Source of the DNA: Cylindrodendrum hubeiense
Taxonomy: Eukaryota > Ascomycota > Sordariomycetes > Hypocreales > Nectriaceae
Direction of reading: 5' to 3'
Assembly (NCBI GenBank): GCA_014621425.1
Contig: JAANBB010000011.1
Span: 62,001-126,000, forward strand
Length of the DNA stretch: 64,000 nt
Shown: positions 3,253 through 41,352 of the stretch, piece after piece
Layout: each line of letters opens with the position of its first letter
How positions within the stretch are numbered: position 1 is the stretch's first letter
The notes under the pieces: model-generated
Database searches by the model: none
What the model saw: only the letters and a program-made list of their open reading frames with translations
What the model was told of the DNA's origin: nothing
Position numbers and translations under genes: made by a program

Positions 3253-4545
3253 GGGTAAATTCCGAAGCAGCTGCGTCGTCGTGGGATAAATCTAAGTGTC
3301 TAGTAGACGTGCATGGTGAATGGCATGGACGTAGCTGATCCTACTCTTTTGTTGAAGATAGATAACATAACACAAGCGGTGTCAACCGGCAAAACATAGG
3401 AGTGGAATAAAATTGGTCCGTATTTTGCAAACCCTTCTTGTTTCAGCGCCATGCATTCGAGAATCAGGTTGTCGAACTCGAGTATCACAGTTGTGTGGCT
3501 TATATTAAGCTGAGATCATCACCAAACCCGCGGTAGTGTGGTGACAAGGGGTGGATACGCGTAACTCGGCTTCATACGCTAATAAACCCTAATCGTCGAG
3601 CCAGCTGACCTTTTTACTGTCTATTGATCAACAGTCTTACCCTACACTCACGGCAATCACACTCACCAGTTAGTTGCTTATCGAGACGTTCGGTACTTGC
3701 TCTTCGGGGGTATCTTAGTTTAGAAGTTACCAACTGCCAAGACGTATGTCGATTCGATTTTTCTCTGCTGCCGTTGATTGAGGAGATAGACAAGTTTACG
3801 CTTTACGGAGCTGGACGCCCACCCTTTTCAAAATACTACATGAGTCATGCTAGTTTCAAACAATCGTCAACGAAGCCGTGGAGTTGAAACCCATAGGTGT
3901 AATTATAGAAACAGGCTACATCTCGGTTATTACTGTGCTTATTTGCATGGTTGCCTTTATCATTGTCACTACTGCCCCACGAAGCCTCAAACGTGGTTCC
4001 GTAGTAAAGGCAGTAAGTATCTTCCACGTCTACCTCGAGCGTTTCGGTTTCATCCTCTTAAGGAGTACAAAGATAAGATCCAAAAGGGAAAGCAAAAAAA
4101 AAACATACAATACCGGGCATTCTCAGGTCGCCACCGACCCGACTGGTACTCCAGCGGTCGCCAGGTTGACTCAGGGAGAGCGGAGGGGATCCCGTATTTT
4201 CTGGCGCCTGTGGTCGTATGTACCGGATTTAGACACAAATCGACTTTTGTCAGGTTGGGCTGTACAATCACAGAATCGAGATATCATCCTGAGGCACCTC
4301 ACGTAATCATAGCACGAAGTACAACATGGAGAAAAGAGGGGTTCGGTTAAAAGACAAGTCAATTTGCTATTTCAATGGCTATGCTTTCCGAACAAAATAA
4401 ACGACAGGGTGGAATACATTTTGGTCGTGTTTGAACAAGGCGTTAATCAATAAATCTAGACATGGTTCCACACAGCGCTTTGTGAAGCTTTAATACAGCC
4501 TAGACGCTTCTCTTCTTGGAGAAGTCGAACCTGCGAATCTCATAT
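3253..4545. other. intergenic with a possible membrane-protein relic
   Basis: No complete gene was found. At 3854-4012 on the plus strand a reading frame that follows a TAG-type splice acceptor encodes about 53 residues with one clear membrane span (VITVLICMVAFIIVTTAP) and is followed by a GTAAGT donor at 4013. It could be a leftover exon of a fungal membrane protein. I could not find neighbouring exons that restore a gene, so it is not called as a CDS. Confidence 0.25.
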
Positions 4546-15520: not shown

Positions 15521-16159
15521 TCAGTCTTTTTGGAACCCCTCCCACCGACTGAAATCTTGGGTGTCTAGATCAAACAAATCCAGCACCCTTCCAACTGTGT
15601 GATCCACAAGGTCATCGACAGATGACGGCCGAATGTAAAAGGCCGGAACAGGAGGAAATATGACTGCACCATTTTGGGTTGCAGTTAGCATATTTTGGAG
15701 ATGAATTCCGCTTAGGGGACATTCTCGCGCAACCAGGACAAGCCGGTGCCGTTCCTTCAAGATCACATCCGCAGCCCGGGATATAAGATCGTCGCAGTGA
15801 CCCGAACTGATGGCTGACAGTGTTTTCATGCTGCAAGGCACAACGGCCATTCCATCAACTCGGAATGAGCCGCTTGCAATTGGCGCGGCCATATCGTGGT
15901 TACTGTAAACATGATCGGCTAGAGCGCGGACATTGGCGGTTGTGTAGTCCGTTTCGTATTTCAACGTATTCTCTGCCCATTTGCTCATTATAAGATGCGT
16001 CTCAACATTGAGACGGCGAAGGGCAATGAGAGTTTTGATGCCGAGGATGGCACCGGTGGCACCAGATAGGGCCACGATAATTCTTTTTCTTCTTCCAGGT
16101 TGTTTCACTGAAGAGGAAGGCTGCTCTAGAGTAGCGTTGGAGGAAAGAGTTAATGACAT
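15521..16159 (-). CDS. padA1: UbiX/Pad1-type flavin prenyltransferase
   Basis: An intronless 212-residue protein. The start is the ATG at 16159; the longer frame upstream has only a TTG. It joins a dimethylallyl group to FMN, making the prenylated flavin that UbiD-type decarboxylases need. The FMN-binding glycine motif VALSGATGAILG is at about residues 30-41. The segment VVPCSMKTLSAISSG and the C-terminal ARECPLSGIHLQNMLTATQ and PPVPAFYIRPSSVDDLVDHT are conserved in this family. A basic, Ser-rich N-terminal tail of about 25 residues precedes the fold; a mitochondrial targeting role cannot be excluded. It is divergent from the partner decarboxylase across a 748-bp spacer. The symbol follows the Aspergillus name for this role. 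Confidence 0.92.
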   Translation of the reverse strand: MSLTLSSNATLEQPSSSVKQPGRRKRIIVALSGATGAILGIKTLIALRRLNVETHLIMSKWAENTLKYETDYTTANVRALADHVYSNHDMAAPIASGSFRVDGMAVVPCSMKTLSAISSGHCDDLISRAADVILKERHRLVLVARECPLSGIHLQNMLTATQNGAVIFPPVPAFYIRPSSVDDLVDHTVGRVLDLFDLDTQDFSRWEGFQKD

Positions 16160-16907
16160 TTTAGTCGTAATGAGGTCGTTGGGACGATAAAACTCAAGGA
16201 TAACACTACCATGGGGGCACAAATCAAATATGTCTTGACGGTTGGAGACCTTTGTGACGCACTAAATACTGATACGACTATTGAATATGTCATTGTCTAA
16301 TCCGATGTGCCGCCGGACCTACGCACTGTGGCCTTGAAGACAGTGGGTCCGGAGATAATAATTGCTGATTTGGTTCTTTGAGGTGGGCCAGCTAACCTTC
16401 AAGCGTCCATTGTCGGCACAGTAGTGGATAATATGTTCTTCAAGGTGGGTCAGTTAAAACTCGAGGTGGTGACCGTTGCCGGAGATGATAGTAGAGAAGT
16501 CGGAGGCAGCTTTCTTCTCCGATGCCAACGTTTTCTCAAAATATCGCGGAATTAGACACTTACGAGGTTGCATATCTGACGAATCCTTGTCCTGACCGAC
16601 CTTTCGTATTGTGTAACAAGAAACGACGTGATTCGACACGTTAACAAGAGCTGTGGAGCCTACACGGTGTCACCAACGTAATGCTTTAGAGATCTGCTTT
16701 GATTTGTAAATCGAGAAACTCAGCGAATTTTCTCCGAGCTATTCTGGCCCCCTAAAGGCTGTTGATGTGGTTCAGTTAGCTCGTATATATATGTATATAA
16801 CGATGGGAGTATTAATTCGACACGCCTAGTGAATACTTTAGGAATATAACTTACCAGCAATTCCAACCGCACTTATTCCCAAACTCTCATTTTTGTCCAC
16901 ATTCACA
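16160..16907. promoter_or_regulatory. bidirectional promoter of the Pad1-Fdc1 pair
   Basis: A 748-bp spacer lies between the two divergent genes. A TATATAT element at 16784-16798 is about 110-120 bp before the decarboxylase ATG. The segment also has inexact direct copies of a GGTGGGCCAGCTAAC/GGTGGGTCAGTTAAA sequence at 16382 and 16444, which could be operator-like half sites. No gene is seen. Confidence 0.4.
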
Positions 16908-18428
16908 ATGGCGGTGACCTTGCTGCCCCACGAAATTACCAAATCTTCTGCCGAGAGCCTTCGCCGGTTCATTCAAGAGCTTCATGAGGAAAACGACCTT
17001 GTCGTCATTTCCGCTGAGGTAGATCCCGACCTCGAGGTAGCCGCCATCGCCCGCAGGGTATATGAGACGGAAGACAAAGCTCCGCTGTTCAACAATGTCA
17101 AGGGTCAGCATCCCAACGGTCTTTTCCGCATCTTTGGCGCACCCGTCGGAGCCAGTCGAATTCCCGGTAAAAGGTTCATTCGGATTGCAAAGTTGTTAGG
17201 TTTGCCATCTACCGCCACTGGTCAAGAAATTATTCACAAACTCAATGCGGCCAAACGACTGCCCGGGATCCCACCAAAGGAGGTCTCATCAGGTCCAGTG
17301 AAGGATTTCAAGCTTCTTGGGGACGAAATTGATTTAATGGCTCTCCCGATTCCATTTTTGCATCAGGATGATGGCGGAAAATTCCTGCAGACATTCGGCA
17401 TGTACGTTGTTCAAAGCCCTGATGGATCCTGGGTGAACTGGTCGATTACCCGGAGTATGCTTCATGGTAAACGATCCTTGGTTGGTCCAGTTATGCCTAG
17501 GCAAGACATCGGAGTCATTCGACAAATGTGGAAGGATAAAGGGCAGGATATGCCATTTGCTCTATGCTTTGGTGTCTCCCCTGCTGCTATCATGGTCAGT
17601 GGGATGCCAATCCCAAAAGGCACCAACGAGACAGACTACATTGGCGCCTTGACTGGAAACCCTGTCGAGGTTACTAAATGCGAAACAAACAACATCCGGG
17701 TACCAGCAGACGCGGAAATTATCTTTGAAGGCGTTGTCTCTAATTCTGAGACTGCGAGTGAGGGTCCCATGGCAGAATACCATGGTCTCATTTTCCCCGG
17801 AGAGTCTAAGCAATGCCCGTTGTTCAAAGTCAATGCTATCACATACCGGAAGGATCCGATCCTACTAATCTGTGTGACTGGAAGAGCTCCAGAGGAGAGC
17901 GAAACTGTATGGGGATTAACACAGGCGGCGGAGGTGTTGACCATCTGCCAAGATGCGGGGCTCCCCATCAAAATGGTCTGGAATCCATTCGAGTCGCACT
18001 GTCTCTGGTTTATTTTACAAGTTGACAGAGGAGAGCTGCGAGCACTCAACACCAACATGAAGGACTTCAGCTTGAAGGTTGGCCATACAGTTTTCGGCTC
18101 GAAGCCAGGATTCTATATCCCAAAGGTCTATTTAGTGGGAGATGATATCGACCCAACCAACCTCAAGGATATCATCTGGGCGAGCGCCACACGCTGTCAA
18201 CCGCGAGTAAATGAGTTCTTCTTTGATCAGTACCCAAATATTGGACTCATTCCATATGTCTCTCACGGAGACAGGATTGGCCAGTTTCACTACAAAGTGG
18301 TTCGCTGCTGCCTATTTCCAGAGGAATTTTCGCATGAGCTGGAGTGGAGAGAAGCCTCCTTCAAGAACAACTACCCCCAGGAGCTCCAGAATAAGATTGA
18401 GAGACAGTGGACTACATATGGGTTTTAG
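16908..18428 (+). CDS. fdc1: UbiD-family ferulic/cinnamic acid decarboxylase
   Basis: An intronless 506-residue protein starting at the ATG at 16908; the frame extends five codons further to a TTG that I do not use. It is a prenyl-FMN-dependent decarboxylase of alpha,beta-unsaturated acids such as cinnamic, ferulic or sorbic acid, releasing the vinyl compound or pentadiene. Family marks are the cofactor segment NWSITRSMLHGK (Arg about 182) and the acid cluster SETASEGPMAEYHG, whose glutamates at about 281 and 285 act with that arginine. The C-terminal INKIERQW-like helix EWREASFKNNYPQELQNKIE is also present. Length matches fungal Fdc1. Its gene is divergent from the flavin prenyltransferase that supplies the cofactor, so the two form a functional pair used to detoxify plant phenolic acids or weak-acid preservatives. 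Confidence 0.93.
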   Translation: MAVTLLPHEITKSSAESLRRFIQELHEENDLVVISAEVDPDLEVAAIARRVYETEDKAPLFNNVKGQHPNGLFRIFGAPVGASRIPGKRFIRIAKLLGLPSTATGQEIIHKLNAAKRLPGIPPKEVSSGPVKDFKLLGDEIDLMALPIPFLHQDDGGKFLQTFGMYVVQSPDGSWVNWSITRSMLHGKRSLVGPVMPRQDIGVIRQMWKDKGQDMPFALCFGVSPAAIMVSGMPIPKGTNETDYIGALTGNPVEVTKCETNNIRVPADAEIIFEGVVSNSETASEGPMAEYHGLIFPGESKQCPLFKVNAITYRKDPILLICVTGRAPEESETVWGLTQAAEVLTICQDAGLPIKMVWNPFESHCLWFILQVDRGELRALNTNMKDFSLKVGHTVFGSKPGFYIPKVYLVGDDIDPTNLKDIIWASATRCQPRVNEFFFDQYPNIGLIPYVSHGDRIGQFHYKVVRCCLFPEEFSHELEWREASFKNNYPQELQNKIERQWTTYGF

Positions 18429-41189: not shown

Positions 41190-41317
41190 AGCAATTTGGC
41201 GCAGTGGAAGCGCGGTATGTTCCAATTCCAACTCTATATCATCACAAGTTCGAAAACTAACTTGTCCCAGCCGGGCTCATAACCCGGAGGTCGCACGATC
41301 GAAACGTGCAATTGCTA
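41190..41317 (+). tRNA. initiator tRNA-Met(CAT), interrupted by a spliceosomal-type intron
   Basis: Exons are 41190-41214 and 41271-41317. Joined, they make a 72-nt tRNA. The acceptor stem is AGCAATT/AATTGCT (41190-41196 with 41310-41316), the D arm GCGC/GCGC, the anticodon stem CCGGG/CCCGG with loop CTCATAA, and the T stem GCACG/CGTGC. Initiator marks are A1-U72, three G-C pairs at the foot of the anticodon stem, and ATCGAAA in the T loop, where elongators have TTC. The same body occurs in the fungal initiator tRNAs I know (Neurospora, yeast). Box A and box B are intact and a run of seven T follows at 41346. The 56-bp insert lies between positions 26 and 27, not at 37/38 where nuclear tRNA introns sit. 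Confidence 0.88.
41215..41270 (+). other. 56-bp GT-AG intron-like insert inside the tRNA gene
   Basis: The insert begins GTATGT, has CTAAC at 41257-41261 and ends CCCAG, with nine bases between the branch motif and the end. These are the three signals of an ordinary fungal mRNA intron, and the length is typical. A perfect 7-bp inverted repeat, ACAAGTT (41244-41250) with AACTTGT (41259-41265), folds the branch region into a hairpin. Nothing resembles the bulge-helix-bulge fold cut by the tRNA splicing endonuclease at the usual site. Confidence 0.8.
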
Positions 41318-41345: not shown

Positions 41346-41352
41346 TTTTTTT
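41346..41352 (+). terminator. Pol III terminator of the tRNA gene
   Basis: Seven consecutive T residues begin 29 bp after the tRNA's last base, a sufficient termination signal for RNA polymerase III. A small inverted repeat (GCCTC...GAGGC) lies between them. Confidence 0.75.

Follow-up and report, generated by a model that had tools for sequence, protein, structure and literature searches.

Structure of the initiator tRNA-Met gene

The window analyzed here is a stretch of 64,000 nucleotides from Cylindrodendrum hubeiense (contig JAANBB010000011.1, positions 62,001 to 126,000 of the forward strand). A 5S rRNA gene, the lone one in the window, is located on the minus strand at 4102-4221 (Rfam, 65 bits); taken with long open frames and the short GT-AG introns of protein genes, it suggests a filamentous ascomycete. 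A gene pair at 15521-18428 resembles genes for a flavin prenyltransferase (UbiX/Pad1-like by its motif) on the minus strand and a ferulic acid decarboxylase (Fdc1-like) on the plus strand. The subject of this analysis is an initiator tRNA-Met gene on the plus strand, recognized from the sequence and with ARAGORN, which spans 41190-41317 with its exons and intron. Exon 1 (41190-41214, 25 nt) holds the 5' strand of the acceptor stem, the D arm, and G26, its end being tRNA position 26 in our own numbering. It is followed by an mRNA-type GT...AG intron of 56 nt (41215-41270), delimited by ARAGORN analysis of the joined exons and by splice-signal scoring, and by exon 2 (41271-41317), which supplies the anticodon arm with CAT, the T arm, the 3' strand of the acceptor stem, and the last A. 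A preliminary description of this DNA had reported mRNA-type motifs in the intervening piece; in it lie the 5' splice site GTATGTT (41215-41221), the branch-site motif ACTAAC (41256-41261) with a presumed branch A at 41260, 10 nt before the intron end, and the 3' splice site CAG (41268-41270). An A-box-like element in exon 1 (41197-41207) and a B-box-like element, GATCGAAAC, in exon 2 (41297-41305) are candidate elements of the internal Pol III promoter, and a run of seven T residues (41346-41352) is the presumed Pol III terminator.

Hallmarks of eukaryotic initiator tRNAs are, besides the CAT anticodon, an A1-U72 pair, a block of three G-C pairs next to the anticodon loop, and a T loop that reads ATCGAAA. 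When the 56 nt were left out, the joined exons formed a 72-nt tRNA-Met(CAT) in which ARAGORN found all four stems paired, in agreement with the perfect pairing described before, and which bears the A1-U72 pair, GGG-CCC beside the anticodon loop, and the ATCGAAA T loop. The accessible text of PMC8450103 likewise gives A1:U72 as an initiator feature. In its unspliced form, the gene yielded no tRNA with ARAGORN at default settings (no introns allowed), was miscalled as tRNA-Val(AAC) once introns were allowed, and was absent from the Rfam matches at gathering score.

Initiator tRNA-Met genes of the genome

The whole genome assembly (47.5 Mb in 798 contigs) was then searched for initiator genes. 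A D-arm pattern matched ten places, six exactly and four with two mismatches (backward control: 1); the latter four (L015-L018) contained no tRNA gene according to ARAGORN and were dropped. An anticodon-to-T-arm pattern, with two mismatches permitted, led to the same six loci (L009-L014) and to none further. The exons of all six genes are identical, a state unlike that of a decayed tRNA pseudogene. Each gene is interrupted at the same site by an insert (56, 59, 56, 57, 54, and 55 nt) that starts with GTATGTT, and the interiors of the inserts average 49% identity. The branch motif is ACTAAC in five and ACTAAT in one, with its A 10 nt from the end, and the 3' end is CAG in five and TAG in one. 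Since the same exons and similar inserts recur in five more initiator genes, a chance origin of the arrangement found in the window is excluded.

An intact, intronless initiator gene elsewhere in the genome had been named beforehand as the finding that would speak against this gene. None was found: a pattern for the joined junction, with up to three mismatches, matched no intronless initiator gene genome-wide, and BLAST of the joined 72-mer against the genome matched only in 12 pieces: every one of the six loci gave two, with the break at base 25, and no contiguous copy came up. Hence by two patterns and by BLAST all initiator genes detected are split. ARAGORN with introns allowed names the six genes Val, Asp, or Leu. 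Two patterns for elongator tRNA-Met found no such gene; their matches were to one sequence (2 of 2 and 12 of 13), read as tRNA-Lys(CTT), and the thirteenth was a tRNA-Phe.

The inserts have a further common element, TTCGAA, found in five of the six initiator introns and in none of 38 mRNA introns of this genome; its copy in the window lies at 41249-41254, and in four introns it stands just ahead of the branch motif. It may reflect shared ancestry or an extra B-box-like element. A true intron-borne B box was considered and rejected upon inspection, for the strict B-box form is not present in these introns, and exon 2 holds a good B box.

Split genes in other tRNA families and in U6

For other tRNA families, the genome was searched for CTAAC, AG, and one form of the T arm, after which the DNA of matches was read and the joined exons were used in BLAST searches. 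The search gave 23 matches versus 22 in a backward control, so that the count itself is meaningless. Eleven of the matches, in eight stretches, were read as DNA, whereas the other 12 are known only as matched letters. Seven of the eleven proved to be tRNA genes with mRNA-type introns (one each on C117, C363, and C508, and four on C129). Among the rejected ones, C413 and C12 hold tRNA genes with apparently ordinary anticodon-loop introns and a chance CTAAC, while C90:109403 and C159 do not have the appearance of tRNA genes. A separate pattern composed of an A box and GTATGT, which misses the initiator gene itself, gave ten matches (control: 9), in none of which ARAGORN recognized a tRNA gene.

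Together, these steps revealed five split genes and one intronless gene for tRNA-Asn(GTT), and four split genes in tandem and five intronless ones for tRNA-Arg(ACG). Aligned with the joined exons, the intronless Asn gene shows 100% identity over 74 bases; the intronless Arg(ACG) genes align over 72 bases, one with 100% and the other four with 97% identity. These unbroken matches make the intron boundaries in both families exact. For tRNA-Arg(CCT) and tRNA-Arg(TCT) a single split gene each was the only copy found, and a genome-wide BLAST of the joined exons detected no intronless gene for either. Thus, the first observation was not only confirmed but also widened from one gene to 17 mRNA-type introns in five tRNA families, situated at five sites (in our own numbering): 26/27 in the initiator, three different places of the D loop in Asn, Arg(ACG), and Arg(CCT), and 31/32 in Arg(TCT). 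None of the 17 lies at the Sen-type position 37/38. The number is a lower bound, because the search demanded CTAAC and one T-arm form and because 12 of its 23 matches were seen only as letters; four of the five split tRNA-Asn genes have ACTAAT and surfaced only through the BLAST of joined exons. All five joined tRNAs were recognized by ARAGORN with the expected anticodons. The shortest first exon among the split genes has 16 nt (Arg(CCT)). None of the 17 split genes was among the 59 tRNA matches listed by Rfam (63 of 1,339 candidates scored). No such introns turned up when bacterial and viral contigs were scanned, and control scans for intronless initiator genes in the same contigs were likewise empty, so that these negatives carry no information.

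The arrangement of two groups deserves a description of its own. The four tRNA-Arg(ACG) genes (L106; G000:C129:64640-65520) stand in tandem about 200 bp apart and have identical exons with widely differing intron interiors, which makes them a natural series for intron drift. On G000:C795, three split tRNA-Asn genes and an intronless one (L113, L114, and L042) lie within about 4.4 kb and encode the same mature sequence.

U6 snRNA is transcribed by Pol III, and the fission yeast U6 gene has its B box in the intron. Two U6 genes were found in the present genome, one intronless (L035) and one (L036) with a 58-nt mRNA-type intron of the form GTGAGT...ACTAAC...CAG within the conserved ACAGAGAAGAU-UAGCAUGG stretch. 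The latter gene lies on the minus strand (G000:C41:36727-36888), and its intron holds GTTCGAGCC, a good match to the B box. Because Pol III makes U6, introns of the mRNA type already have precedents among Pol III RNAs, one published and one local: fission yeast, which the preliminary description had named (confirmed in the accessible text of PMC10484740), and L036.

Comparison with the mRNA introns of the same genome

As a yardstick, we used 38 mRNA introns of the same genome with open reading frame support on both sides; the script that collected them returned 8 introns from reversed sequence, which means that some of the 38 are false. The tRNA introns are 51-59 nt long, compared with 45-109 nt for the mRNA introns (21 of 38 at 45-59 nt). 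All 17 start with GT, end with AG, and carry ACTAAC or ACTAAT 10-13 nt from the end, the distance in the mRNA introns being 7-17 nt. In a splice-signal score built from the 38 mRNA introns, 16 of the 17 tRNA introns exceeded the lowest mRNA intron, and the intron of Arg(CCT) fell below all 38. Among the initiator introns, four scored better than 30 of the 38 mRNA introns, one better than 26, and one better than 12. None of 200,000 base shuffles of the window insert attained the lowest initiator score. When each intron was shuffled separately, the score of Arg(CCT) was reached by 1 of 20,000 shuffles and that of the other 16 by none. In Arg(CCT), the 5' splice site is weak (GTACTT), and the 31 bases inspected downstream of the gene contain no T run. 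The five Asn introns end with AAAG, while only 5 of the 38 mRNA introns end with AAG. TTTT, a Pol III stop signal, does not occur in any of the 17 tRNA introns, which is weak support, since 31 of the 38 mRNA introns lack it as well.

The way in which the introns were found matters for this comparison. Seven of them (four Arg(ACG), Arg(CCT), Arg(TCT), and one Asn) came from the query with CTAAC and AG, and their motifs are therefore partly a product of the search. The argument from motifs hence rests on the ten introns (six initiator, four Asn) that were found by exon sequence, with no splice motif demanded; GT, ACTAAY, and AG were present in all ten. Among paralogs, the splice signals had an identity of 0.96-0.97, the aligned interiors one of 0.44-0.49, and the exons one of 1.00. 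Of the signals, the branch part was located by its motif, which raises its identity; the six bases at the start of the intron and the three at its end were compared by place. Conservation of the signals while the interiors drift is as use in splicing would predict. The identity of the exons, taken by itself, could be caused by gene conversion.

These data bear on the idea that the split genes are dead and that unseen intronless genes supply the tRNAs. Intronless copies do exist for Asn (one of six genes) and Arg(ACG) (five of nine), and an assembly of 798 contigs could miss a gene. However, dead copies would not long keep six identical sets of initiator exons or conserve splice signals as the interiors diverge, and the genome searches brought up no intronless gene for the initiator, Arg(CCT), or Arg(TCT). 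We therefore regard this explanation as very improbable.

Ordinary tRNA introns and alternative routes of intron removal

Nine distinct tRNAs with ordinary introns were present in the loci given to ARAGORN. These introns lie between bases 32 and 39, measure 12-38 nt, and in no case contain the mRNA signals (GT, branch motif, and AG). Judging from such genes, the endonuclease pathway seems to be present in this organism, and it is conceivable that the tRNA splicing endonuclease and ligase cut the inserts at non-canonical sites, in the manner credited to the ectopic tRNA introns of Cyanidioschyzon merolae, the likeness to mRNA introns being coincidental. We examined this with a test for the bulge-helix-bulge central helix, run with the cut sites fixed. 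The full 4-bp helix was possible in none of the initiator (0/6), Arg(ACG) (0/4), Arg(CCT) (0/1), and Arg(TCT) (0/1) introns, though three of its four pairs were often possible in these 12, and a bulge-helix-bulge at the initiator junctions was accordingly rejected. Four pairs were allowed in 3 of the 5 Asn introns, in comparison with 6 of the 38 mRNA introns placed at the Asn site. Thus, the mRNA-type introns look unlike endonuclease substrates, with some doubt for Asn. The anticodon-loop introns of other tRNA genes, from which the enzyme should be present, and the Asn helices favor a role of the endonuclease; the incomplete helices of the 12 other introns and the lack of mRNA signals in the nine ordinary ones weigh against it, and it would leave GT, the branch motif, and AG in the ten introns found blind to motifs without an explanation. 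We give it a slim chance of being right.

Another possibility is that the inserts leave by self-splicing or through an RNA-cutting enzyme of a different kind that uses the same ends by chance. At 51-59 nt, the inserts are far below the size of known self-splicing introns. Folded at minimum energy, the six initiator precursors take up different structures within the insert. Several of them show a short end-to-end helix, but a helix joining the 5' and 3' splice sites was rejected, for this pairing is weaker than the mRNA-intron median in all six. This route appears to be extremely improbable.

Discussion

The gene structures, the comparison of paralogs, and the likeness of the inserts to mRNA introns are observed, and the structures themselves are near certain; transcription, splicing, and the nature of the enzyme we infer from them. 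In our estimation, with a probability of roughly 0.88, the split genes are functional and give rise to Pol III transcripts that contain a spliceosomal (mRNA-type, U2-class) intron. The proposal of an mRNA-type intron made for the window gene is supported in that all six initiator genes are split, that the signals are kept across diverged interiors, and that four other tRNA families and U6 have similar introns, with removal by the spliceosome as the probable consequence. According to this model, Pol III would initiate transcription through the A and B boxes, one in each exon, and terminate at the T run, the spliceosome would recognize GTATGTT, ACTAAC, and CAG and release the intron as a lariat, and joining of the exons would give the 72-nt initiator tRNA, followed by the usual end trimming and CCA addition. 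Because no intronless initiator gene was found, decoding of start codons would depend on the spliceosome, and the same would apply to the decoding of AGA and AGG by tRNA-Arg(TCT) and tRNA-Arg(CCT). The supply of some tRNAs, and with it translation, therefore probably relies on the spliceosome in this fungus. It also appears likely that two tRNA-splicing systems operate in one nuclear genome, with the Sen endonuclease handling the anticodon-loop introns and the spliceosome those of mRNA type, which would have been gained at five or more tRNA sites; initiation and some arginine decoding would then be wholly spliceosome-dependent. The introns may have arisen by reverse splicing, or have been gained in some other way, before the genes duplicated.

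In the textbook view, protein enzymes splice nuclear tRNAs, and the spliceosome has no part in it. If the introns are spliced as their appearance suggests, the spliceosome helps to make tRNAs as well, among them the tRNA with which every protein begins. This would tie translation directly to splicing capacity and would mean that spliceosomal introns can arise and persist in very short, highly structured Pol III RNAs. The presence and absence of introns in identical paralogs of one genome offer a clean system for studying intron gain. Moreover, as the tRNA tools tried (ARAGORN and Rfam) miss or misname the split genes, other genomes may hide more of them.

We came upon no description of nuclear tRNA genes with mRNA-type introns in the open literature, which largely excludes subscription papers, and the accessible part of PMC11782384 names no spliceosomal intron in a tRNA. 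According to the portions of PMC8450103 that could be consulted, a eukaryotic tRNA gene has no more than one intron, and incomplete fungal genomes were excluded from its count of initiators. For Aspergillus niger, two intronless tRNA-Met(CAT) genes of 72 bp are listed (PMC6108506, accessible text); if either of them is the initiator gene, the intron is not general in filamentous fungi.

The closest known counterparts are the U6 introns of fission yeast and other fungi, which, like those described here, are short GT...CTAAC...AG introns in a gene for a small Pol III RNA. The fission yeast intron is spliced and is thought to stem from reverse splicing, as stated in the available text of PMC10484740. 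Such an event is easy to picture for U6, which is part of the spliceosome, but tRNAs are not, and the hosts here are tRNA genes of five families with introns at five sites. According to a 2017 paper (PMC5832005, seen in part), frequent interruption by an intron was known among small structured RNAs for U3 and U6 alone. Fungal U3 snoRNA genes likewise encode a small structured RNA that is processed by the machinery for mRNA splicing, with a host that is not a tRNA. To judge from its title, a study by Rogers et al. (1993; cited in PMC11782384) reportedly dealt with an mRNA-type intron in nuclear 18S rRNA genes of deuteromycete fungi; this, too, would be an mRNA-type intron in a fungal non-coding RNA gene, although the host is an rRNA made by Pol I and not a Pol III tRNA gene. 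Sen-type introns at 37/38 share with the present ones their location in nuclear tRNA genes and occur in this genome as well; the mRNA-type introns, by contrast, lie elsewhere, are larger than the 12-38 nt of the nine ordinary introns read, carry GT, a branch motif, and AG, and in four of the five split families lack the full bulge-helix-bulge central helix. The preliminary description had held that known nuclear tRNA introns sit at 37/38 and are cut by the Sen endonuclease. As to location, this is too narrow, for the red alga Cyanidioschyzon merolae has ectopic tRNA introns, which are credited to the splicing endonuclease (PMC4090602, a review, accessible text). The C. hubeiense introns resemble those of the alga in their unusual places within tRNA genes and differ from them in carrying mRNA-type signals.
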